From Saccharomonospora azurea NA-128 (GTDB taxonomy: Bacteria; Actinomycetota; Actinomycetes; Mycobacteriales; Pseudonocardiaceae): DNA of 64,000 nucleotides. Where the stretch lies: the NCBI RefSeq assembly GCF_000231055.2, contig NZ_CM001466.1, positions 4,513,392-4,577,391 of the forward strand. The letters are read 5' to 3'. A program made the position numbers and the translations under genes. Of this stretch, positions 47,086 through 60,310 are shown one piece after another. The notes below the pieces were generated by a model that had not been told where the DNA came from, searched no databases, and saw only the letters and a program-made list of their open reading frames with translations. Numbering within the stretch: position 1 is the stretch's first letter; each line of letters opens with the position of its first letter.

Positions 47086-49461
47086 GACCCGCCGTTGCTG
47101 CAGGCGCTGACGTCGGCGGTGCGGCATCACCCGCGGGCGCGGCTGCTCGTCGTGGTCACGGCCGTGACGGACGACCCGAGCTTGCCCGCCGACGTGCTCG
47201 ACCTGCTCGCGCACAGCGCCACCGCCGAGATCGTCCTGGCTCCCCTGACTCCCACCGAGGTGAGTCGTGTGGCCGCGGCGCGCGGCGTGTTGCTGCACCC
47301 GTCGATGGCCGAGTCGCTGTGGCGGCACACGGGCGGCAGGCCCCGTCCGGTGGTGCACCTGCTCACCGAGGTGCCGTCGGCGACCTGGGCGCGGTTCGAT
47401 CCGGAGCTCCCGGCTCCCGCGGCCGTCGCCGCTGCCGTGCGGGCCGCGTTGGGGCGTTGCTCGCCCGCCGCGCGCGCACTCGCCGAAGCGGCGGCCGTGC
47501 TCGGCCCGGGCATCGCGGCGCGGGACGTCGCCCGGCTCGCCGGCGTCGAGGACGACCCACTGCCCGCACTCGACGAGGCCCACACCGCCGGGCTCGTCGA
47601 GTTCGGCCCCCGCGGGCTCACCGAGGTGGGACCCCGCGACCCCCTGGTGCGGGCCGCGATCCTGGCGACGATGGGACGCGCGGCGGCCGCGGAGGCGCAC
47701 CGCCGTGCCGCGGAGCTGACCGAGGACCCGGCCCGCCGACTCCGGCTGCTCGTCGCCGCGTCGCCGGTCCCGGATCCCGCGGTCGCCGACCGGCTCGACT
47801 CCCTGGCCGCCGAACACGCGGCCGAGGGAGCCTGGGCCACGGCGGCGTCACTGCTGCACGACGCGAGCCGGCTCACCGACGACCAGGTGCTGCGCGGGAG
47901 CCGCCTGACCCGCGCCGTCGACGCCTCCATCGGGGCGGGCGACGTCTACGCCGCGGCCGCCCTCGTGCCCGAGGTGGAGAGCCTGCGGGAGACCCCGCTG
48001 CGCAACGCCGTGCTGGGGTACCTCGCGATCGTGCGCGGACGCGCCGTGGAGGCCGAGTCGCGCCTGCGGCGAGCGTGGACGCTCGTGAACACCGAGCGCG
48101 AACCCGAGGTCGCGGCCCAGATCTGCCAGCGGTACGTGCTCCACGCACTCCTGCGGTGCCGGGGCGAGGAGCTGCTCACCTGGGCCGACCGCGCCATCGC
48201 GCTCGCGGGCCCGGACTCACCGGCCGCCGTCGAAGCGGCCGCCATCCGAGGGTTGGGTCTCGCGGGCACCGGACGGGTGCGCGAGGCGATGCGCGACTAC
48301 GCCGAGCTCGGTGACCGGGTCCCGCACGGGGCGCAGGCGCTGCGGGTCGTGCTGGCGCGGGGCTGGCTCAACGTGGTGGTCGACGCGATCGACGACGCGC
48401 GCGCCGACCTCGCGAGCGCGGTCCCCACCACCTATCTCGGCGGGTCCACCCGCATCTCCCTGTGGGCGCGGGCCTGGCTCGCGCGCGCCCGGTTCCTCGC
48501 GGGCGAGTGGGACGACGCCCTGCGCACCGTCCGAGAGGCGGAGCCGCTGCTCGAACGCAGCGGGATCGTGCTCGCCGCTCCCCTGCTGCACTGGACGGCC
48601 GTGGCCGTGCACGCCCTGCGCGGGGAGTGGGAGGAGGCCGAGTCGACGCTGCGCCGGTGCGAGGCGGGCCCTCAGGACTACGAGTGGATGCGCGTCGCTT
48701 CCTGCCTCGCCCGCGCCCACCTCGCCGAGGCGCGAGCCGACTCCGCGGGCGTGCTGCGCGCACTCCACCCGCTCACCCAGAGCTGGGCGGGCGGCAGCAT
48801 CGACGAGCCGGGCCACTGGCCCTGGCACGACCTGTACGCGCACGCGCTGGTCGTCGAAGGCCGGCACGCCGAGGCCGACACCTTCCTGCGCCGCCACGAA
48901 CGGCTCGCCGACGACCGGGAGAGCGCGTCGACCCGCGCCCGGCTGGCGGCCGCCCGGGGACGCCTGCTCGGCGCCCAGGGCGACCACGTCGGCGCGACCC
49001 AGGCGTTCGAACGCGCACTCGACACCCTGGAGACCCTGCCCCTGCGCTACGACCGCGCCCGCGTGCTCTTCGCCTACGGGCAGACGCTGCGCCGGGCGGG
49101 CAAACGACGCAGGGCCGACGCCGTGATCTCGACATCGCGGGAGATTTTCGTCAGTCTGGGGGCCGCCACGTGTGTGGCGCGCTGTGACCGTGAACTGAAG
49201 GCGGGTGGGATGCACGTCGTCCGGTCGGCCCGTCAGGCCGGGGGACTCACGCCCCAGGAGGAGGCCGTCGCCGAGCTGGTGGCCCGGGGCCTGTCCAACC
49301 GTGAGGTCGCCGCCGAACTCTTCCTCGCCACCAAGACGGTCCAGTACCACCTGACCCGCGTCTACGCGAAGCTCGGCGTCCGTTCCCGGGCCGAGCTCGC
49401 CGCGCGCCGCTCGTCGAGCGGCGATGTCACCGTTCCCTCGATTCGACAGGAGATCGAATGA
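47083..49461 (+). pseudogene. 5'-truncated LAL-type LuxR regulator
   Basis: The open frame gives about 790 residues that begin immediately after where Walker B would lie: ADPPLLQALTSAVRHHPRARLLVVVTAV. Walker A and B of the STAND ATPase domain, found intact in the two LAL copies of the cluster, are absent. The helical-repeat region and a C-terminal LuxR helix-turn-helix (LSNREVAAELFLATKTVQYHL) are present. TTG 47095 could serve as a start without ribosome-binding sequence. Transcription or function is doubtful, but the downstream pcaD overlaps its stop by ATGA, showing that they once formed an operon. Confidence 0.75.
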
Positions 49462-50222
49462 CGCCGCACCACCAGATCACCGGCCCGGACACCGGCGAGG
49501 TCGTCGTGCTCGCCGGGTCGATCGGCAGCAACCTCAGCATGTGGGACCCGCAGGTGCCCCGGCTCGTGGACGCGGGCTTCCGCGTGGTCCGGTTCGACAA
49601 CCGCGGCCACGGCCGCTCGCCCGTGCCCGACGGCCCCAGCTCGATGGCCGACCTCGCCGGCGACGTCGTCGAACTGCTCGACACCCTGGGCATCGAGCGC
49701 GCGCACCTCGTGGGGCTCTCGCTGGGCGGGATGATCGGCATGTGGCTCGGCGCCCACGAGCCGTCGAGGATCGACCGGCTGGTGCTGTGCTGCACGTCGG
49801 CCAAGCTCGGCACCCCGCAGATGTGGGAGGAGCGGGCGACGCAGGCGACGACCAAGGGAATGGTCAGCATCGCCGACGGCAGCATCGGCCGGTGGTTCAC
49901 ACCCGGCTGGATCCAAGCCAACCCGGGCCTGGCCAAGGAGTACCACCACATGACGGCCACCGTGCCCGCCGCGGGCTACGCGTCGTGCTGCGCCGCCATC
50001 GGCGGGATGGACCTGCGTGACGCCCTGCCGTCGATCACGGCGCCGACCCTGGTCATCGGCGGCCGCGACGACCAGGCCACGCCGCCCGAGCACGCGCAGC
50101 TGATCGCCGACCGCATCCCCGGCGCGCGCCTGGAGCTCGTCGACGGCGCCGCCCACCTGGGCAACGTCGAACAGCCGGAGATCTTCGGCGAGCTCATCAC
50201 GGAACACCTCACGGCGAGGTGA
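49458..50222 (+). CDS. pcaD: 3-oxoadipate enol-lactonase
   Basis: The 254-residue alpha/beta hydrolase has FDNRGHGRSP, the nucleophile elbow GLSLGGMIG, Asp in GGRDDQATPP and His in GAAHLGNVEQPE, the set typical of PcaD. It hydrolyses beta-ketoadipate enol-lactone, downstream of pcaB in protocatechuate catabolism. The start overlaps the truncated LAL gene (ATGA). It is separated from pcaHGB by about 47 kb, and its last 37 bp are duplicated at 55071. With its regulator broken, expression is uncertain. Confidence 0.92.
   Translation: MTPHHQITGPDTGEVVVLAGSIGSNLSMWDPQVPRLVDAGFRVVRFDNRGHGRSPVPDGPSSMADLAGDVVELLDTLGIERAHLVGLSLGGMIGMWLGAHEPSRIDRLVLCCTSAKLGTPQMWEERATQATTKGMVSIADGSIGRWFTPGWIQANPGLAKEYHHMTATVPAAGYASCCAAIGGMDLRDALPSITAPTLVIGGRDDQATPPEHAQLIADRIPGARLELVDGAAHLGNVEQPEIFGELITEHLTAR
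50186..50222 (+). repeat. 37-bp direct repeat, copy 1 (3' end of pcaD)
   Basis: The last 37 bases of pcaD, from CGGCGAGCTC to GAGGTGA including the stop, are repeated identically at 55071-55107 in the same orientation. After one mismatch both copies also continue with CGGAAGC. The pair brackets 4.9 kb of CRISPR-Cas, phage and lipoprotein fragments. Confidence 0.9.
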
Positions 50223-50568
50223 CCGGAAGCGGCGGGTGGGCCCCGCTCGAGAACTCGCGTGAGGGCGTCCACGCGGTGCGTGACGAGGTCACGGTAGGCG
50301 GGACTGCCTTGGACGTTGACCTCGTCCCCCGGGGAGACAATGGGAAACTTCTTCCCCGCGCGCCAGACCAAGATGGTTCGGTGATGGTGAGCAGGCTCGT
50401 TGCGTCCCGTTGGCGCCCTGACCGAGATGTTGCCTCGCTGTCACCGGCGGTTCTCTGTTTCGTCCGCGGTGACAACTGGGCTGCCTCACAGCTCGGTGAA
50501 GTATTAGCCGACAGGCTCGACGTGTGCGTCAGGCAGATGCAGAGCAAGCGAGTGTCGGAGTTCAGTCC
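50223..50568. other. Non-coding or decayed tract after pcaD
   Basis: About 346 bp without a convincing gene. A minus-strand stretch around 50240-50371 reads PGDEVNVQGSPAYRDLVTH, which looks protein-like but has no recognised family and no intact ends. It may be debris of the same rearrangement. No promoter or terminator is recognised. Confidence 0.5.
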
Positions 50569-50597
50569 CGAACCATCCCCGCATGCGCGGGGCCGCC
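50569..50597. CRISPR. Single type I-E CRISPR-repeat-like sequence
   Basis: The 29-base stretch contains GAACCATCCCCGCATGCGC followed by GGGG and CCGCC. It includes the hairpin CCCCGC-ATGC-GCGGGG and, apart from about three end bases, equals the repeat type I recall from actinobacterial type I-E arrays (reverse complement, ending GGATGGTTC). Only one copy is present, directly at the end of the inverted cas7e fragment. It is therefore a remnant and not an array. Confidence 0.6.
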
Positions 50598-51012
50598 CCC
50601 CGAGGCCCCGGCCGCCAAAACGGGTTCGTCACCCCACTGCCGCACGGCGCGACCGTGCTCCTCGGCGAGTCTGCGCGCTGACTTCTCTGCGATGCCGCCC
50701 CTGTCGTCCTCCCGCACGGAGACGGGGTTCTCGAAAGCGGAGACGAGGTTGACCGGCTGGTCGGCACGGACCACGACGGCTACCAGGCTCGGGCGTGTGC
50801 GGTGCGCGTAGGAGTTGGTGTGTCCTGTGGGCATCGAGCGGGCGAAGGCGTCGAGGAACAGTCGGGCGCCGTCGTCGGTGGTGTCCGCGTCGCCGAGATT
50901 CTCCTCGAGCTGGTGAATCCCAAGCGTTGCGTAGCGGTAGAGGGTGGCCGAATTAAACCCGACGGTGCCGATCATGCCCGCGCCGGTGTTCTCCGTGTTC
51001 TCGTCGTCCACT
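50598..51012 (-). pseudogene. Inverted 3' part of cas7e (Cascade backbone)
   Basis: On the minus strand the sequence from 51012 reads VDDENTENTGAGMIGTV, then FNSATLYRYATLGIHQLEEN, FARSMPTGHTNSYAHRT and VVVRADQPVNLVSAFENPVS, all Cas7e (CasC/Cse4) hallmarks. The first half of the protein (about 200 residues) is missing and the end runs into the CRISPR-repeat-like sequence. The orientation is opposite to cas5e, cas6e and cas1e, whereas an intact I-E operon has all on one strand. An inversion with breakpoints in cas7e and cas5e explains this. Confidence 0.75.
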
Positions 51013-51478
51013 ACCTCGCGGGATTGCGGTTCGGGGTGCGTGTCGACCAGCCGGGCAGTCTGCTGCGCGACTACCACACCGTCAGCGACTACCGCGGTGT
51101 CCCGCTTCGCCAGGCCGGCGTCAACGCCAAGGGAGAGCAGAAGCCCACCTCCCCAGCAAAGAGCACGCATGCTACCCACCGCTACTACCTTCAGGACGCC
51201 GTCTTCGTTGCTGCTGTCTCAGGACCGGCGCCGTTGATGACCGCACTCGCCGACGCGATACGTCGCCCTGCCTACCCGCTGTCGTTGGGACGGCGTTCGT
51301 GCCCGCCAACACAACCGATCGTGCTCGCTGTCGAGGAGGCGGAGGTGAGGGCGACGCTGGCCGCATGTCCGTGGCAGGCCGACACCCACAACCGCCGTCG
51401 TCTTCGCAGCCGGCACGGGGGAAGCCTCACTCACACGTCGACCTCCCCGCGACACCCCACGACCCCTTCGCCCTGTTG
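51011..51478 (+). pseudogene. 5'-truncated, frame-disrupted cas5e
   Basis: The plus strand reads LAGLRFGVRVDQPGSLLRDY, then VNAKGEQKPTSPAKSTHATH, RYYLQDAVFVAAV and AYPLSLGRRSCPP, the centre of Cas5e (CasD). About the first 70 residues are missing: the homology starts exactly where the inverted cas7e fragment ends. After PWQADTH the tail (HVDLPATPHDPFALL) lies in another frame with some codons lost. Not functional. It is directly upstream of cas6e, the normal gene order. Confidence 0.75.
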
Positions 51479-51491
51479 AGCTGGTGGCCCC

Positions 51492-52222
51492 ATGCCGTTC
51501 CTCTCTCGCATCCGCATCAACCCCTTCCGTGAAGTCAGCCGAAAACTGCTCACCAATCCGCACGTCACACACGGTGCCGTGGTAGCCGGCCTTCCCGATC
51601 CTGAAGCAGACCGTCCACTATGGAGGTGGGACAGCGAGCGCGAAGGCAGGCCGTATCTCCTCGTCCTCACCAGTACCGCTCCGGACTGGACTCACCTCGT
51701 CGAACAGTGCGGTTGGCCCTCCGCGGGTGGCGACCACGTCGTCACCCGCGACTACGCCCCGCTCCTGCGCCAGCTCGCGAAGGGGCGGGAGTTCGCTTTC
51801 CGTGTCACCGCGAATCCCGTGCAGCATGTCCCAGCTCCTGTCATGGATTCAGTGCAGGGCTCCCCGGCGAAGCGCGGCCGCGCTCAGCGCATGGGACATC
51901 GCACCGCCTCTCATCAGCAACGCTAGTTCCTCCAGCGTGTCGAACGCTGGGGTTTCTCCATCCCCCGGCGCGACTCGGTGGAATCGGCACCGGAGCGGAC
52001 GAGAATTCGGACCTGCGGGTCACTCAGAGGCAACGGCTTTCTTTCGCTAAGAAGAAGGCAGGCAAACCGGTTGTTCTGCACCTCGCGACGTTCGAGGGAC
52101 GTCTGCGGATCAGCGACCCGGAGGTGTTCTCCCGCACTCTGCTCGAAGGTCTCGGCCCAGCGAAGGCCTACGGCTGTGGTCTCCTCACCCTCGCACCACT
52201 CCCGGCGACCACGCAGAGGTGA
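51492..52222 (+). pseudogene. cas6e with a nonsense codon and a frameshift
   Basis: ATG 51492 opens MPFLSRIRINPFREVSRKLL and HAFRVTANPV-type motifs of Cas6e (AKGREFAFRVTANPV), the CRISPR RNA endonuclease. A TAG at 51924-51926 interrupts HQQ-[stop]-FLQRVERWGFSIP in the same frame. Between about 51970 and 52005 homology shifts to a second frame, which carries VVLHLATFEGRLRISDPE and the glycine-rich RNA-binding loop GLGPAKAYGCGLLTLAP up to 52222. Two independent lesions show that it is a pseudogene. Confidence 0.8.
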
Positions 52223-52225
52223 GAA

Positions 52226-52857
52226 GTGGCCGATATCTGGTGGAAAGCTCACCCGCACGATCTGCACCGCCTCACCGACCGCGTTTCCAGCGTCTATGTC
52301 GAACGCAGCCACCTCGACCGCGCCGAAAACGCGATCGCCGTCATCAATCGTCGCGAGACCGTAAGGATTCCGGCTGCGCTCGTGGCTGTGGTGTTGCTCG
52401 GGCCGGGAACCCGTGTCACCCATGGTGCGATGCAACTGCTGGCTGACTCGGGCACAGCGGTGTGCTGGGTCGGCGAGCAAGGTGTACGGATGTATGCGTC
52501 GGGCCTCGGCCCGAGCCGGGGCGCGGCGCTGTTGCAGCAACAGGCGTATTTGGTCAGTCGAACCAAACCACGCTTGGAAGTGGCGCGCGCCATGTATGCC
52601 ATGCGGTTCCCCGGCGAAGATGTCACGACACTCACCATGCAGCAGCTCCGAGGTAGGGAAGGCGCCCGCGTCCGCAAGGTCTACCAACAGCAGGCACGTA
52701 GGTATGGGGTTACCTCGACCGGCCGGGCGTACAAGGCGGGGGATGCCTTCGCGGCCGGGGACGATCTGAACCGCCTGCTGTCCGCCGCCAACGCCGCTCT
52801 GTACGGGCTCTGTCATGCGGTCATCGTTGGGTTAGGGGCAAGCCCGGGACGCATCTG
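52226..52857 (+). pseudogene. cas1e, C-terminally truncated before catalytic His/Asp
   Basis: GTG 52226 opens a frame whose first 208 residues are Cas1 of type I-E: DRVSSVYVERSHLDR, VVLLGPGTRVTHGAMQLL, WVGEQGVRMYASG, MQQLRGREGARVRKVY (Glu145, the first metal ligand) and ALYGLCHAVIVGLGASPG. At this point, just before the conserved His and Asp ligands of the second half of the active site, the frame passes into phage capsid sequence. Spacer integration cannot occur. It follows cas6e by 3 bp; cas2 is absent. Confidence 0.85.
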
Positions 52858-53194
52858 CATCGGCAGTGGAATCCGACCGGTGACGAGCCACCGCTGGTGG
52901 AAGGCACTAACCTCGTACGCAGGCCGTATGACGAAAAACTCCAACTTTGACCCCTGGTCGGCCGTCGATGCCGCCGCCAACGGCACACATCGGCTGTTGG
53001 TGGTCGGGGACTGGTCGAACTACCTCGTGGTAAATCGGGTTGGAACCACAGTTTCATACCTGCCTCCGGGCGTGTTGCAGGGCAGTAACCGCAGGCCAGA
53101 CGGCCGTGTCGGCTGGTACGTCTACTGGCGTGTAGGCGCGAACGTGCTGACTCCGAAGGCTTTCCGGCTGTTGAAGGTCACGACAACGGCCTGA
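52858..53194 (+). pseudogene. 3' fragment of an HK97-type phage major capsid gene
   Basis: The last 112 codons of the fused frame resemble the C-terminus of actinophage HK97-fold major capsid proteins: LLVVGDWSNYLVVNRVGTTV, then NRRPDGRVGWYVYWRVGANV and AFRLLKV. It is in frame with the truncated cas1e only by chance, as the two parts have no shared role. A terminator-like hairpin follows at 53277. No other virion gene is present in the window. Confidence 0.7.
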
Positions 53195-53276
53195 CCCCCA
53201 AAGGATTCGGGAATAACCGGCTAGTCAACGTCAGTTAGATACGTTTTGGTCTTTTCAACCCTCCGTCATGTGGAGT

Positions 53277-53319
53277 GGAAAGCCCCCGGCTGGAACTAGA
53301 GTCCTGGTCGGGGGTTTCC
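53277..53319 (+). terminator. Hairpin after the capsid fragment
   Basis: GGAAAGCCCCCGG (53277-53289) pairs with CGGGGGTTTCC (53309-53319) with one bulged G and a 19-base loop. Its form resembles intrinsic terminators after phage structural genes. No other gene lies in the 165 bp between the capsid fragment and the lipoprotein gene. Confidence 0.6.
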
Positions 53320-53359
53320 CGTTCCTGCTGGTGCCAAGGCCAGGCGGGCTCGACCTTCT

Positions 53360-53935
53360 TCAGGGAATCTCAGGTAGGCGGGGCTCGACCATGCCCGCAA
53401 TCACCTCGGCGGCTTCACAGGCGGCCTGCGAGCTGTCCTCTCCGGTGATGGTTACATCGACTCGGGAGAGGTCGTCTATTTCCATCGCGAAGTTGCAGTC
53501 GCCCAGTTTCGAGTTCTGGGTCGAAGCGGCGGGGCGTCGGTTGATCTCGCTGGTCTCAATACCGTCGCCGTAGTCTCGCATCTCATCGATACTTTGCGTG
53601 TCATGGATGCTTACGGCGAACGTGAACCCGTCTCCGCCATTATTTAGGCTATTCTGCCAGAAGCATGCGCGTACGTCTTTATCTTCTTTGTATCGTGAGT
53701 CAAAGTTGCCCACATCGGCAAGGTCTTCAGTTGTAAGCAGCTCGCAGGGGTCAATGTCGAGGCTAATCGAGGTAGCTGAAGTGGGTGTTGTTGGAAGTAT
53801 GCTACCGGTCGAAGGATTATTCGACCAAGTTTGAGGCGATGCGGATCCTGGCTCCTCGCTTGCGCACCCAGACGCTGCCGACAGTAGCAAGGTCAAAGTG
53901 GCAATACCTGCCCACTTGTTGAACTTGGAAGACAC
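53360..53935 (-). CDS. DUF3558-family lipoprotein
   Basis: The 191-residue protein has a lipoprotein signal peptide (WAGIATLTLLLSAASGC, with the lipobox Cys at about 24), a Ser/Thr/Pro-rich linker and a DUF3558 domain (DPCELLTTEDLADVG, RACFWQNS, a C-terminal Cys pair). DUF3558 lipoproteins are common in Pseudonocardiaceae next to EspC-like genes, as here. The codon use is clearly AT-richer than that of neighbours (ATA, TTA-like third positions), which suggests recent acquisition. GTG 53935 lies 6 bp behind the stop of the helical gene. Function unknown. Confidence 0.85.
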   Translation of the reverse strand: MSSKFNKWAGIATLTLLLSAASGCASEEPGSASPQTWSNNPSTGSILPTTPTSATSISLDIDPCELLTTEDLADVGNFDSRYKEDKDVRACFWQNSLNNGGDGFTFAVSIHDTQSIDEMRDYGDGIETSEINRRPAASTQNSKLGDCNFAMEIDDLSRVDVTITGEDSSQAACEAAEVIAGMVEPRLPEIP

Positions 53936-53941
53936 AGATCA

Positions 53942-54415
53942 TCAACCGCCCAAATTGCGAAACGCGTCCACGGAGGACTCTTCTTGCTCTTCGTACTGAT
54001 CCGAAGCCCTCTGTAGGGCCTCTCAACTCTGCTGTAGCACGATCTCTAGTGCATCAAGTGAGGCGCGGACGGATTGATCATCGTTCGCGGCTGCGTGCAT
54101 GTGCTGCGCGACTCTTCTTCCGTAATCGTGATTTCCGAGCGGCGGCATCTTGTCGAAGGCCTGCAGTTCGGTCCGCATTATAGAGATTTCGTCAATATAG
54201 TTATTCAGCACCTCGATGATCGGGTCGGCGGCTTCCTTGGTCACCCTGAAACCGCCCGACTTGGCTGAGGAGATCAGCGCGTCCGCCGAGCGGCCCATCT
54301 TTGCCATCGCTTCGGTGCCCATCGACTTGTTCATCGCCGATAGCGCGCCCATCATCGCCCCACCGCCCGGAGCGAACGCAGCAGCTCCACTGGCGACGTT
54401 TGTGGGATCAGACAC
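53942..54415 (-). pseudogene. EspC-like helical gene interrupted by a TGA near its end
   Basis: From GTG 54415 (behind GGGGG) the frame gives 130 residues of a helical protein (ADPIIEVLNNYIDEISIMRTEL, VAQHMHAAANDD). A TGA at 54023-54025 then interrupts, and in the same frame a further 26 codons follow (EALQRASDQYEEQEESSVDAF) up to the stop at 53942, directly before the lipoprotein. The post-stop sequence keeps a protein-like helical pattern, so a recent nonsense change is likely. A truncated 130-residue protein may still be made. Partner of the DUF3558 gene. Confidence 0.7.
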
Positions 54416-54557
54416 GAGTACCCCCAAGCCCAACCGCACGGAACCGTTCGGCTTCGGAGTGTATCGGCCTGACGGCTACTTCGTAGGGGATAGCCGCGTC
54501 ACCTAAGCGCGGTCGTTGGGGCGGAGGTGGCTGTGGTGGCCGCCTTGCAGCTTTTGC

Positions 54558-54806
54558 TCAGCGGGGCCTCAGCCGAGTGACTGTAGGGTCACTGTCCGCA
54601 ATGCTGTCTGCTATGTCGACGTTCTCCAGGTGCTCCTGTATCACCGGTTCGGCCTGCGCTTTCACGCGCCGTCGTTGCTCTTCCAGGTCGTGGACCCGCT
54701 CCTCTAGCCAACTCACCCGAGCGTTGAGCGCGTGGAGGTCATCCTGGTGAAGCCGTGCGCTGATGCGGTCGTGCAGGTCGCGCATGCGGTAGAACAGCTC
54801 GCGCAT
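54558..54806 (-). CDS. Small coiled-coil protein
   Basis: The 82-residue, highly charged product (YRMRDLHDRISARLHQDD, then NARVSWLEERVHDLEEQRRR) is predicted as one long coiled coil. ATG 54806 follows an AAGGTGCGATC sequence that offers AAGG. No family recognised. It is separated from the helical gene by a 142-bp gap (54416-54557) where I see nothing. Small proteins like this occur near mobile or WXG-related genes in actinobacteria. Confidence 0.55.
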   Translation of the reverse strand: MRELFYRMRDLHDRISARLHQDDLHALNARVSWLEERVHDLEEQRRRVKAQAEPVIQEHLENVDIADSIADSDPTVTRLRPR

Positions 54807-54983
54807 GATCGCACCTTCTTAGTGATCGTCATCTCGATGTGAGCCTGTGCTCTGGGGTGCCCACAAGCGTCGTCGCTTCTCGTACCTGCGTTTGCTTGAC
54901 AGTCACACACCTGACTGCGGTGTCGGCCCCGCGTGCGCGAGGATGCTTCGCCGGACGGATTGTCGGAGCTCGCACACTGGCGA

Positions 54984-55070
54984 TCCAGGCGGTGGTCATC
55001 GACAGGGCGAGTGGCAGGGTGTGGCATACCACACCAGGGTGCCGATGCCGTCGCGCAGCGGGGACTCCAC
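54984..55070. repeat. Mosaic of two abgT fragments
   Basis: 54984-55050 repeats the 3' end of the abgT gene (57869-57930) at about 90% identity; on the minus strand it reads LPLALSMTTAWIA. From the shared word CGATGCCG onward, 55043-55070 instead matches 58412-58439, an internal part of the same gene, with one mismatch. At 55071 the pcaD-derived repeat starts. All three pieces keep their source orientation. The flanking gap 54807-54983 shows no gene. Confidence 0.75.
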
Positions 55071-55107
55071 CGGCGAGCTCATCACGGAACACCTCACGGC
55101 GAGGTGA
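55071..55107 (+). repeat. 37-bp direct repeat, copy 2
   Basis: Identical to the pcaD end at 50186-50222, but here it is preceded by abgT-derived sequence and not by pcaD. It marks the right edge of the rearranged segment; the next gene starts at 55214. Confidence 0.9.
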
Positions 55108-55213
55108 GCGGAAGCCGTCGCTCGTTCCGGTGAACGGTGCGCCATCGCCGCCGGGCTGTCGGTGCGGCTGACTACGGTCGCCGCTGCGACAGCTCGACAC
55201 GCTGGGGGAAGCG

Positions 55214-55885
55214 ATGGGTGGGTTCCGGTCGGATCAGGCGCGTGGCCCGGATGGCAAGTGGATCAAGGAGAAGATCGGCGGAACGGTCGTGGGGGCCGCT
55301 CTGGTAGCCACGATGATGGCGACGCCGATCGGCGCAGGAGTCACCGCGAGCGGCGGTGCGCTCTCCGCCGAGTCGTCGATCGGGCAGCTCGCCCGGAGCA
55401 CGCTCGACAAGGCCAAGCAGAGCGCGAAGAAGGGGCAGCGTCGCACCACGTGGAAGCGGCTCGACCTCCGGGAAGTCACACGCAAGTCGGATCGGGTTGC
55501 CGACTGCGCCGTGCACTCCTACGGTCGGGTCCAGCGTTTGCTCGCGACCACGCCGTGCCGTTCGCTGCATCGCGTGCTCTATGCCCTCGACGGCCGCGAC
55601 GGTGACCGGGTCGTGGTGTCGGTGTCGTGGGTGCGGATGCGCAGCACGGGGGCGGCGCGGGCGCTGCGGAACCTCGTCGACGTGCACGGGACGGGCAACA
55701 TCCGCCCCCTGCCCGGCAGCCTCGTGGGGTCAGGCCGCATCGACTGGACGGGGTGGAACTACGACTCCGTCCGGTCGGGCAGGCAGGTCACGATCGCCGA
55801 GGTCGAGCCGCTGCGGGGAAATCCGAGCGCGGAATACATGGACGCCGTCGCCGAAGCCGCCGCCCAGTTCCCCCGACCTCGGTGA
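55214..55885 (+). CDS. Hypothetical protein next to WXG-type gene
   Basis: The 223-residue product begins MGGFRSDQARGPDGKWIKEK and has one hydrophobic segment (about 23-50, VVGAALVATMMATPIGAGVTA) that could be a membrane anchor. A mostly polar beta-rich part with the strands VLYALDGRDGDRVVVSVSWV follows. No family recognised. ATG 55214 follows GGGGGAAGCG. It is 160 bp upstream of the large WXG-type gene and may work with it. Confidence 0.65.
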   Translation: MGGFRSDQARGPDGKWIKEKIGGTVVGAALVATMMATPIGAGVTASGGALSAESSIGQLARSTLDKAKQSAKKGQRRTTWKRLDLREVTRKSDRVADCAVHSYGRVQRLLATTPCRSLHRVLYALDGRDGDRVVVSVSWVRMRSTGAARALRNLVDVHGTGNIRPLPGSLVGSGRIDWTGWNYDSVRSGRQVTIAEVEPLRGNPSAEYMDAVAEAAAQFPRPR

Positions 55886-56045
55886 CGTCCGGAATGGCAA
55901 CCGCCGGGTCAGAAGTGACGCGAGCCGCCATGGTGGAATGTTCCTAACAAGTGGAACGAGGGACTTGCCGCGCACGTCTCAGGTCGGATACCCGACCAGC
56001 GGCGAAATGCTCGGCTTCGCCTTCACCACGGAGGAGTGCTCACCC

Positions 56046-57746
56046 ATGTCCGGTGGGGATTACATCGACAGTACCGCCCACGCTGCCACGCTCTCCTCCG
56101 CGATGGACGACTTCGAGAAGGCGCTGACCTACCGGTGGCGGGAGCTGGTCACGGAGAAGATCTACGCGCTGGAGCACGACTACCCGGTGCGGATCAGGCG
56201 TTCGATGAGTCCGCACAACTCCGAACCGATGTGGGAGTACTGGTCTGCGGCCGCGGTCCACCACATGCGGGGTCCGCAGGGCGGGTGTGCCTACGTCGAC
56301 TGGGTGCGGGGAGGCCAGGAGGGTTCGCTCGGCTCCGTCACCTGCGACGGGAAGACGGGGGCCACCGAAGAGGTCGATGTCGTGGGGCCCAGCGGTCAGA
56401 TGGAGACCGTCCCGCCCTACATCGACTGCGGTATGGGGAAAGTACTGGCCCAGGTCGAGGACTGGGCCTGGGGCGAGCGCGAGCACGTCTACTATCAGCT
56501 TCCGCTGTTCGACACCCACGACGTCGGCGCCATCAAGAAGGCCCACGACGACTTCATCAAGGTGGGCAAGCAGCTCGGGTTGGAAGCCGCGTCCGGTTCG
56601 GCCGACGTGGGCACGTTCACGCCGACCAGCGAGCGCGAACTCGTCGCCACGGTCGAAGATCTGGCAGGTGAGCGCGGTGAGGGACAGGACTGGTGGGCGG
56701 GCTGGACCGGCCTGGCCGCCTCCCGGGCGAAGGCGGGCTTCTTCGCCTCGGTCGCACCGACCATGAACAACCAGTCCGGCATCGTGGGATCGCTTGCGAA
56801 CCTGTATTCGGCTCGGGCCGCCATCATCGAGAAGGGCCGCAACGACGCCCTGTACTGGATCCAGTGGGCGACCAAGTCGCTCAAGGAAGAGGAGGCCACC
56901 TCCACGAATCTCGTGCCGGGGTGGAAGACCGTGCAAGCCCTGGGCACCGCCATCAGCATCAGCGGCGGTTGGACCGGAGTCGGCGGCGCGGTCGGCGCCA
57001 GCGTGATCCTGGTGGGCTTCCTCGGCGAGAACCTGATGGGCGAGGTGAAGCAGGAAGGGTACAAGCACGAGGTCGTGGACGTGGTCGAGCAGCTGAACAC
57101 GAAGATCGACGCCCTGAACGACGAGATCACGGACCTGGAACTGGATTACTCCGGTGTCGTGGGCTCGCTGCGGACCACGATGTTCGGCATCCACAGCTAC
57201 AACCTGGAGCTGTACGACCTGACGCAGAACGACCCGCAGGGTGACGACGAGGACGAGAAGGACGGATACACGGCCCACGTCGACGACATCCTCAAGATCG
57301 GCCAGGCGTGTTACGAGGCGGGCGAAGCGTATGCCGAGCTGCTGCCGACCCTCTCCGGCACGTTCGAGGCCGACGCGAGCCTCGCGGACAAGGACGGTAG
57401 CCCGACGGAGACCGACACGCTTTTGATCGAGACCCGCGACCGGCTGGAAGAGTTCATGAAGACGTCCTCGGCGCGCTATCTGCTCGCCGGCGACCAGGTC
57501 AAGAAGGCCGCGGAAGCCTACGCGGAGGCGGAGGAGGACCAGAAGGCGGCGTTCGACCGGATCATGGCCGACTGGGAGGACGCGGACGTCGGCGACTACC
57601 AGGACGACGTCGACTTCGACCCGGAAGAGGCCGCCCGCGAGACCGAACGCACCGGCTTCGATCCGTACGAGGACCACCCCGCTCGGGGCGGCGCCGAGCC
57701 CGGTGCCGGTGACGGCGAGGAGTACGAGACCGACAAGGACTCCTGA
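56046..57746 (+). CDS. Large helical WXG-type protein
   Basis: The 566-residue protein is mostly helical and acidic toward its end. It has GWTGLAASRAKAGFFASVAP (a WXG-like turn near residue 220), a hydrophobic hairpin (about 300-330; ALGTAISISGGWTGVGGAVGASVILVGFLGE) and a long coiled coil (EQLNTKIDALNDEITDLELD). The C-terminal 40 residues are strongly acidic. Its size and layout resemble those of the WXG-type proteins of the two modules at 38675 and 42983, without the repeat linker. ATG 56046 follows GGAGGAG. A type VII-related envelope role is an inference. Confidence 0.7.
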   Translation: MSGGDYIDSTAHAATLSSAMDDFEKALTYRWRELVTEKIYALEHDYPVRIRRSMSPHNSEPMWEYWSAAAVHHMRGPQGGCAYVDWVRGGQEGSLGSVTCDGKTGATEEVDVVGPSGQMETVPPYIDCGMGKVLAQVEDWAWGEREHVYYQLPLFDTHDVGAIKKAHDDFIKVGKQLGLEAASGSADVGTFTPTSERELVATVEDLAGERGEGQDWWAGWTGLAASRAKAGFFASVAPTMNNQSGIVGSLANLYSARAAIIEKGRNDALYWIQWATKSLKEEEATSTNLVPGWKTVQALGTAISISGGWTGVGGAVGASVILVGFLGENLMGEVKQEGYKHEVVDVVEQLNTKIDALNDEITDLELDYSGVVGSLRTTMFGIHSYNLELYDLTQNDPQGDDEDEKDGYTAHVDDILKIGQACYEAGEAYAELLPTLSGTFEADASLADKDGSPTETDTLLIETRDRLEEFMKTSSARYLLAGDQVKKAAEAYAEAEEDQKAAFDRIMADWEDADVGDYQDDVDFDPEEAARETERTGFDPYEDHPARGGAEPGAGDGEEYETDKDS

Positions 57747-57803: not shown

Positions 57804-59354
57804 CTACCGCACGGGCGCTCCCGGGCCGAGTGGGATGCCGAGCACCCACCAGGCGAGGAACAGCAGCGTCCAGGCGGTGGTCATCGCCAGGGCGAGCGGC
57901 AGGGTGTAGGACACCAGGGTGCCGATGCCGGCGTTCTTGCGATACCGCTGGAGGAATCCGAGCGCCATGATGAAGTACGGGCTCATGGGCGTGATCGCCG
58001 TGGACCCGGAGTCGGCGATGCGGAACAGTGCCTGCGTCGTTTCGGCGGGCACGTCGACGAGCATCAGCATCGGAACCAGCACCGGGGCGGCGATCGACCA
58101 CATCGCCGAGCCGCTCGTCACCATCACGTTGACCAGTGTCAGCAGCACGAGCACCAGCAGGAACACGACGATGATCGGCAGTCCCGTCGTTTCGAGCAGT
58201 TCGGCCGCCCGCACCGACAGCACGTCGCCGACGTGGGTCCAGTCGAAGTACGCGAGGAACTGGGCGATGGCGAAGAACAGCACGAGCACGGGCGCCATCT
58301 GCTTGAGGCCCTCGACCATCAGCTTGGGCACGTCGGCGGCCTTCGTGATGGTGCCCGTGCGCACGCCGTACACGATGCCGACGGTGCCGAAGAGGAACGC
58401 CACCACGGTGGCGATGCCGTCGAGCAGCGGGGACTCCACGATGCTGCCGTCCTCACCCCGCAGCGGCGAGGATTCCGGAAGCACGAGCGCCACCAGCACC
58501 ACGGTCGCGACGAGCAGCGCCGCACCGGCCAGCCGCAGCGCCGAGCGCTCCCGTGGGGACAGTCGCAGTGTGGCGATGTCGTCGAGCTCGGCGTCGGGAT
58601 CGGGGTCCAGGTCGGGACGTTTACTGAGCACGAACCGGGTCACCAGAGTGATCACGGCGGCCAGCACGAGCGACGAGGCGATGTTGAAGAACCAGTTGCT
58701 CACCGGCGAGACGTACGCGTCCGGGTCGATGATCTGTGCCGCCGCCGTGGTGATCCCGGCGAAGATCGCGTCGTTGGGTGTCGGGATGGGGCTGGCGTCG
58801 TAGCCGGAGGCGATGGAGGTGTAGGCGACGACGACGCCGAGGATCGGCGAGCGACCCACCGCGCGGAAGGCGAGCCCTCCCAGGGGCACCAGGATGATGT
58901 AGGCGGCGGCGGAGGCCACGTGCGCCGCGGTGCCCGCGAAGGCGACGGCGAACACCACCCACGACGCCGGAACGCGGGACACGCTGACCCGCATGAGCGC
59001 GGCGAGGAAGCCGCTGCGCTCGGCCACGGCGACACCCATGATCACCACGACGATCGTGGCCATGGGCGGAAACGACGCGAAGTTGTCGATCATCGTCGAC
59101 ACGGCCATCGCGAGGCCGTCGCCCGAGATCAGGCTGCGCACGGCCACCGTCTCGCCGTCGCTCGGCGACACCACGGAGACGCCGAGCCCGGCGAGGACGG
59201 CGCTGACCACCGCGAGGATCGCGGACAGCAGCCAGAACAGCCAGAACGGGTGGGGCAGCGCGTTGCCCGCGCGTTCGATGACGCCCATGGCGCGCACGAT
59301 GCGCGGGAGTCTCCGGCCGTCGGCAGCCTTCGAGGAGGAGTCCTGTGTCGTCAT
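57804..59354 (-). CDS. AbgT-family transporter
   Basis: The 516-residue protein has about twelve hydrophobic segments and AbgT signatures: NALPHPFWLFWLLSAI near the N-terminus, ASGYDASPIPTPNDAIFAG, and the hairpin MVTSGSAMWSIAAPVLVPM followed by STAITPMSPYFIMALGF. Family members import p-aminobenzoyl-glutamate or export sulfonamide-like compounds by proton motive force. ATG 59354, behind AAAGGA, lies 2 bp after the upstream esterase stop, so both are one operon. Its fragments recur at 54984-55070. Confidence 0.92.
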   Translation of the reverse strand: MTTQDSSSKAADGRRLPRIVRAMGVIERAGNALPHPFWLFWLLSAILAVVSAVLAGLGVSVVSPSDGETVAVRSLISGDGLAMAVSTMIDNFASFPPMATIVVVIMGVAVAERSGFLAALMRVSVSRVPASWVVFAVAFAGTAAHVASAAAYIILVPLGGLAFRAVGRSPILGVVVAYTSIASGYDASPIPTPNDAIFAGITTAAAQIIDPDAYVSPVSNWFFNIASSLVLAAVITLVTRFVLSKRPDLDPDPDAELDDIATLRLSPRERSALRLAGAALLVATVVLVALVLPESSPLRGEDGSIVESPLLDGIATVVAFLFGTVGIVYGVRTGTITKAADVPKLMVEGLKQMAPVLVLFFAIAQFLAYFDWTHVGDVLSVRAAELLETTGLPIIVVFLLVLVLLTLVNVMVTSGSAMWSIAAPVLVPMLMLVDVPAETTQALFRIADSGSTAITPMSPYFIMALGFLQRYRKNAGIGTLVSYTLPLALAMTTAWTLLFLAWWVLGIPLGPGAPVR

Positions 59355-59356
59355 GG

Positions 59357-60310
59357 TCAATCCTTTGAGGACGGAAGCCGGTGGCGGCTGACGAAGTGCC
59401 ACAGCACCTCGTGCGCCTCGATGGTCTGGGTGGTCTCGCCGCCGCCGCTGTAGACGTCGGCGCCCGGCCAGGTGTGGCCGCCGCCGTCCACGGCGACGTG
59501 CCGGACCTCCGCGCCGCGGTCGCAGCCGTGGGAACGGAACACCGTGATGTCCGGCTCGATCCGCCGGCTCGTGGTCGTGCCCGCGCAGCCGTTGCGGTCC
59601 GCCCAGCCGCGCACCCAGTCGGGGATGGCGGGCAGGTCGCGCTCGGCGTCACCCGCGTACGGGATCGTCGCGTCGTGGGTGCCGTGGAACTCGATGACCG
59701 GCACCGGTCGCCCTGGTTCGCAGTCCTCGCGGGTCCCGGGGTAGAAGGCGCCCGCGACGGGCGCGATCGCGGCGATGCGGTCGGACATCCGGCAGGCGAG
59801 CAGGCCGGTGAGACCCGCGCCGTTGGACTTCCCCGTCGCATACACCCGGCGGGTGTCCACGCAGAGTTCACGTTCGAGCTGGTCGAGCAGGTCACCGGTG
59901 AACGCGACGTCGTCGACGCCGGGCGCGGAGTACGGGGCGCCCTGCCAGGCCTGCCGGTCGCCGTCCCCGAGTCCGACGACGCCGTTCGGATAGGCGACGA
60001 CGGCGGGCAACGTGGAGAGTTTCGAGAACTCCTCCGTGCGCACGGCGTCGTTGCCGCGGCCGTGGAACACGACGACCACGGGCCACGGGCGACGTGCATC
60101 GTAGTTCTCGGGCAGGTGCAGGCGGTAGGTCCGGTCGAGACCACCGCTGCTGATCGTCCTGTCGTGGCTCGTGCCCGGTGGTTGCGGCGCGACGCTGCCG
60201 CAGCCGGGCGAGGCGGGCCGGGGGTGTGCTGTCGCGGGAGGCGCGCTGAGTGCGAGGAGCGCGCCCGCCGCGGCCAGCGCCGCGGCGAATCGGGGAAAAG
60301 GCACCCTCAT
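59357..60310 (-). CDS. Secreted polyhydroxybutyrate depolymerase/feruloyl esterase-like (LpqC type)
   Basis: The 317-residue protein has a Sec signal peptide (FAAALAAAGALLALSAPPATAHP, cleavage near 29) and an LpqC-type esterase fold. Motifs are VVVFHGRGND, the nucleophile region TGKSNGAGLTGLLACRM, EFHGTHDATIPYAG with the catalytic Asp, and GGGHTWPGA with His. It would hydrolyse esters of phenolic acids or polyesters outside the cell. Start ATG 60310 follows AAAGGGAA. Its stop is 2 bp from abgT, suggesting linked secretion of the esterase and uptake of products. Confidence 0.9.
   Translation of the reverse strand: MRVPFPRFAAALAAAGALLALSAPPATAHPRPASPGCGSVAPQPPGTSHDRTISSGGLDRTYRLHLPENYDARRPWPVVVVFHGRGNDAVRTEEFSKLSTLPAVVAYPNGVVGLGDGDRQAWQGAPYSAPGVDDVAFTGDLLDQLERELCVDTRRVYATGKSNGAGLTGLLACRMSDRIAAIAPVAGAFYPGTREDCEPGRPVPVIEFHGTHDATIPYAGDAERDLPAIPDWVRGWADRNGCAGTTTSRRIEPDITVFRSHGCDRGAEVRHVAVDGGGHTWPGADVYSGGGETTQTIEAHEVLWHFVSRHRLPSSKD

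Follow-up and report, generated by a model that had tools for sequence, protein, structure and literature searches.

CRISPR-Cas loss and decay are common, and proteins in which Cas1 is fused to a partner, such as RT-Cas1 and Cas4-Cas1, retain the whole of Cas1 and are met with in many genomes. An intact type I-E locus, against which the locus described here was compared, is carried by the congener G010 (4,308,349 bp) at G010:C1:1786000-1797000, with the order array-cas3-cas8e-cas11-cas7-cas5-cas6-cas1-cas2-array; eight of its eight cas genes matched their own type I-E models. The genome of the soil actinomycete Saccharomonospora azurea NA-128 is a single contig of 4,763,852 bases, from which a window of 64 kb (the whole stretch of DNA that was analysed) was examined. 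The segment of interest, that is, the part of the window that runs from where an alpha/beta-hydrolase gene (49458-50222), its left neighbour, ends to the start of an unassigned gene at 55214, has a G+C content of 53-69%, as against 70-77% on the left flank. This locus is very probably what is left of a type I-E CRISPR-Cas system that no longer functions, ordinary in kind and unusually readable in its anatomy. No description of it was found among the papers searched.

Remains of the type I-E locus

Three broken cas genes and two relic repeats are listed here; the fourth gene, cas1e, is treated below with the sequence joined to it.

50570..50597, minus strand: relic CRISPR repeat, 3 mismatches in 28 to GTCGGCCCCGCGCACGCGGGGATGGTCC, in the orientation of the array upstream of cas3
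50614..51011, minus strand: inverted piece of cas7e that keeps codons 204-335 of 381 and lacks both ends
51013..51491, plus strand: cas5e fragment, 5'-truncated, with an out-of-frame deletion near the 3' end
51492..52222, plus strand: cas6e pseudogene, with a TAG ending at 51926 and a frameshift near 51950
54922..54949, plus strand: relic CRISPR repeat, 5 mismatches in 28, in the orientation of the downstream array

A preliminary description of this DNA had recognised four cas genes, all of them broken, and Pfam and NCBIfam HMM searches of each fragment agreed with every one of these gene calls. The minus-strand frame 50562-51179 matched PF09344 (E 4e-40, profile 197-329 of 361), the cas5e piece matched PF09704 (E 4e-26, profile 52-178 of 217) as well as TIGR01868, and cas6e matched PF08798 twice, with a change of frame between the hits (6e-29 and 3e-20). 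The surviving fragments belong to families specific to type I-E (TIGR01868, TIGR01869, TIGR01907 and TIGR03638), the NCBIfam scores of the cas7 and cas6 pieces being below the curated cut-off, as is usual for fragments.

Alignment to the intact congener locus (L045) showed that 50614-51011 is inverted and corresponds to L045 3708-4105 (80.9% DNA identity), while the sequence from 51013 on corresponds to L045 3409 downward (77.2% identity over 51013-51466), and 51446-52848 aligned with 79.0% identity. At the inversion joint, position 51012, 298 bp of the intact locus, where cas7 ends and cas5 begins, are gone. The inversion of cas7e and its truncation together with cas5e at about 51012, both claimed in the preliminary description, were borne out by this alignment. 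Both genes had been called 5'-truncated, which is correct as far as it goes, although cas7e has lost its 3' end as well, and a further deletion with a change of frame near the 3' end of cas5e had been missed (the tblastn pieces 51015-51428 and 51446-51484 lie in different frames). The stop codon and frameshift attributed to cas6e were both seen, the first as a premature stop and the second in the tblastn pieces, which, like the Pfam matches, fall in two frames.

The feature had been delimited at 50569-53194, which proved too narrow, since relic CRISPR repeats lie at both ends and 45-bp direct repeats lie outside them. A scan of the whole 64-kb window with the 28-bp repeat of G010, allowing up to 8 mismatches, returned exactly two matches, whereas 20 shuffles of the island gave 0.05 matches per shuffle, all with 8 mismatches. 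One decayed CRISPR repeat is thus left at each end of the locus, a finding that goes beyond the preliminary description. Each has the orientation of the corresponding array, upstream or downstream, in the intact locus, so that the two relics most simply mark its two former ends.

Absence of the functional components

The absence of cas3, cas8e, cas11 and cas2, which had also been claimed, was supported by genome search for the first two and by window search for the others, and no relic of any of the four was found in the window. In the whole genome there was no cas8e and no match to the Cas3 of G010 (one query, with no additional positive control); in the window there was no match to Cas2 (single query) or cas11. 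A search of the rest of the genome, as the preliminary description had proposed, revealed a single Cas1, a single Cas5 and no array of the G010-type repeat, only five scattered matches with at most 2 mismatches, the two relics counted in. Nothing that a functional type I-E system would show was recovered, whether an intact set of Cascade genes, Cas3, the full set of Cas1 ligands together with Cas2, or an array of the G010-type repeat. Spacer acquisition would be impossible, because Cas1 is without its His and Asp ligands and no Cas2 was found, and interference would likewise fail for want of Cas3, Cas8e and a functional Cas6.

The Cas1-capsid joint

52226..52848, plus strand: cas1e, codons 1-208 without indel, retaining the first catalytic Glu (E145) but not the His and Asp ligands
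52849..53194, plus strand: in-frame continuation, about 35 unmatched residues followed by the end of an HK97-fold major capsid protein (its C-terminal ~75 residues)

The two parts form a frame of 322 codons that is open across the joint, the first two thirds being Cas1e. The cas1e part matched TIGR03638 (E 7e-74, profile 2-199 of 269) and is 90% identical in amino acids to the intact Cas1. Its alignment with E. coli Cas1 ends at E. coli residue 204, ahead of the FVHTG histidine and the DIAD aspartates, which are kept in the G010 Cas1; these residues and the Glu are the metal ligands of Cas1. The HMM and the E. coli alignment therefore agree with the earlier proposal that cas1e was cut before its second set of catalytic residues and joined in frame to the tail of an HK97-type capsid gene.

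Homology to capsid proteins runs from ~52955 to 53191 and was detected by PF05065 (9e-5, profile 214-279 of 280) and TIGR01554 (3e-5), by matches of 43-46% identity (E to 1e-16) to the major capsid proteins of phages of Gordonia and Rhodococcus, and by comparison with a solved phage capsid structure, PDB 9lw6 (E 6e-16). It covers the C-terminal domain of the HK97 fold, and no complete capsid gene is present. The fusion is in frame as described, although the ~35 residues between the end of Cas1 (52848) and the start of the capsid homology match nothing: all three frames of this stretch were compared with seven capsids without a clear match, and the best hit of its frame-2 peptide among 50,697 phage records had an E of only 9. 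An origin of these residues from a frameshifted capsid was considered, as the W, G and P positions look colinear; the resemblance was not significant and this origin was rejected.

The capsid tail was matched in 19 of 390 genomes of the family, most of the other matches being the ends of capsid-length frames, and in none of the other 389 genomes was it joined to Cas1. The Cas and capsid matches are accordingly real and the chimera occurs in no other genome searched, so that neither of the outcomes named beforehand as fatal to the description (no Cas or capsid matches, or a chimera conserved and under selection in other strains) was observed. No other capsid match, as a possible donor, was present in the S. 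azurea genome, and neither viral contigs nor 84,980 genomes, searched with a method sensitive to close relatives only, contained any close relative of the tail.

The patch that replaces the end of cas1

The sequence following the joint belongs to a patch of ~2.07 kb (52849-54921) that replaces the end of cas1, cas2 and nearly all of the downstream array. Only its first ~0.35 kb is phage-like; a GC-rich, terminator-like hairpin comes next, and the patch also carries two genes.

53360..53935, minus strand: DUF3558 lipoprotein gene, host-type (PF12079, E 3e-18)
54023..54439, minus strand: small gene of a host family paired with DUF3558, with matches in 12/12 genomes of the genus and 168/390 of the family

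A similar pair of DUF3558 and small gene is found elsewhere on the same chromosome, and the small protein had no phage or plasmid match. The preliminary description had a virus-derived segment replacing part of cas1, which is true where the two sequences meet; taken whole, however, the replacement is composite and largely non-viral, with host-type genes past the capsid tail. The DUF3558 and small-gene cassette is perhaps linked to type VII secretion. Relatives of the cassette (53360-54439) occur in every Saccharomonospora genome searched, for example at G000:C1:3518677-3519771. A search against Rfam returned nothing relevant.

Insertion behind the hydrolase gene

50186..50230, unstranded: left copy of a 45-bp direct repeat, at the 3' end of the hydrolase gene, containing CACCTC-ACGGC-GAGGTG
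54984..55070, minus strand: remnant of a gene for an AbgT-type transporter, with 90-92% identity to 57869-57916 and 58401-58439
55071..55115, unstranded: right copy of the 45-bp direct repeat, 98% identical to the left copy

The ~4.9-kb segment is an insertion behind the alpha/beta-hydrolase gene. The corresponding site in two congeners has a single 45-bp copy and no CRISPR segment: in G008 the hydrolase end is directly joined to the sequence found to the right of 55115 in S. azurea, and in G001 (5,408,301 bp) no CRISPR sequence follows the hydrolase end either. A flanking direct repeat and an unoccupied site in relatives, both expected of a mobile element, were therefore found; no integrase or transposase family was recognised among the ORFs examined in 50230-55070. 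The transporter relic, which adjoins the right repeat copy, has lost an internal part between two similar stretches of 19 bp, the intact gene lying at 57804-59402. A tandem duplication is a less likely origin of the 45-bp repeat, since transporter sequence, which is not beside the hydrolase gene in the two congeners, precedes the right copy.

To the right of the insertion, 55214-57746 contains large ORFs without a Pfam match, and the counterpart of 55214-55885 in G008 comes after the same hydrolase gene.

Selection and timing of the decay

When compared with the intact genes of G010, the dN/dS values were 0.11 for cas7, 0.20 for cas5, 0.18 for cas6 and 0.04 for cas1. With ten outgroup loci, and with ratios taken as averages of the listed values, the branch dN of S. 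azurea relative to that of G010 was ~1.6-1.8x for cas5 and cas6, ~1.5x for cas1 and about equal for cas7. These branch ratios show that most of the divergence was gained while the genes were functional and that the decay is recent relative to the split. The open frame and the dN/dS of 0.04 may point to selection on the truncated Cas1 product after the fusion. Between intact loci, however, cas1 is the most constrained of the four genes, and because intact Cas1 pairs are also strongly constrained, the low value gives no ground for supposing that the chimera is in use.

Proposed history and alternatives

The history that we favour would start from an intact array-cas3-cas8e-cas11-cas7-cas5-cas6-cas1-cas2-array locus, as in G010. 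Insertion of the segment behind the hydrolase gene would have produced the 45-bp duplication, possibly through the site-specific integration of an element that has since lost its integrase, and CACCTC-ACGGC-GAGGTG would suit the core site of a tyrosine recombinase. The joints would have arisen by illegitimate recombination or deletion, and the frame shared by Cas1 and the capsid tail is probably accidental, the chance of such a frame being one in three. The preliminary description had proposed phage recombination into cas1 followed by decay; the wrecked type I-E locus and the fusion stand, and that order of events is only one possibility.

It is very unlikely that the cell makes the Cas1-capsid protein and has retained it for a new function, for example in DNA binding or as a decoy against phage assembly, and just as improbable that a CRISPR adaptation protein has taken up a structural segment of a virus to give an expressed and selected product. 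The frame open across the joint and the low dN/dS of the Cas1 part would agree with a new role, but the chimera is in no other of the 390 family genomes, ~35 residues past the joint are unmatched in any frame, the metal ligands are lost, the neighbouring cas genes are all broken, and the dN of the cas1 branch is slightly raised rather than lowered. Equally improbable is an assembly artefact, in which the joints would be misassemblies of a draft chromosome. The deposited NA-128T chromosome is indeed listed as one scaffold from 96 contigs (PMC7990883), but there is no N in the 64-kb window, the genome has no other capsid, cas1 or cas5 sequence to mis-join, the cas6 stop and frameshift would need separate errors, and the repeat relics are decayed, not clean.

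Somewhat less remote, yet still unlikely, is that a mobile element or prophage brought in both the CRISPR locus and a capsid gene of its own and then decayed as a whole in place, a reading that agrees with a dead relic and differs in the origin of the capsid piece. The 45-bp flanking repeat at a gene 3' end, the two congeners without the insert and the G+C content below that of the flanks are in its favour, whereas the 4.9 kb showed no recognisable integrase, portal, terminase or tail gene, the patch is enclosed by the CRISPR locus, with cas1 on one side and the last repeat on the other, instead of adjoining it, and the remaining genes of the patch are host-type. A dismantled type I-E locus with a probably accidental Cas1-capsid frame is the reading that we retain. 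A half-dismantled locus accompanied by an intact congener locus and an unoccupied site is useful for reconstructing how CRISPR-Cas systems are dismantled. It also carries a warning for annotation pipelines, in that the 322-residue chimera exceeds the Cas1e cut-off (248.4 vs 215.6 bits) and yet is without the Cas1 catalytic ligands. A function of the chimera, if true, would be a surprise, and nothing in the analysis points there.

Comparison with known systems

The S. azurea locus shares with the type I-E locus of G010 its gene order, 77-81% DNA identity over the surviving parts and a 28-bp repeat that is recognisable in both relics, and differs from it in having four broken genes and two repeat relics in place of two arrays and eight intact cas genes. 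Two congeners carry a second, divergent Cas1 with 35% identity (L013, G010:C1:1772733-1773350; L011, G002:C1:1971247-1971864), that of G010 being ~13 kb from its type I-E locus; it probably represents another CRISPR-Cas locus.

The capsid tail resembles the last ~75-86 residues of the HK97-fold capsids of Gordonia phages Eyre and Zirinka and Rhodococcus phage Shagrat, at 43-46% identity, whereas in S. azurea the C-terminal end stands alone, and no further gene for a phage structural protein was recognised in the segment. Like the described Cas1 fusions (RT-Cas1, PMC5513706; Cas4-Cas1), the chimera places Cas1 in frame with another domain. Its Cas1 is truncated, and it was found once.
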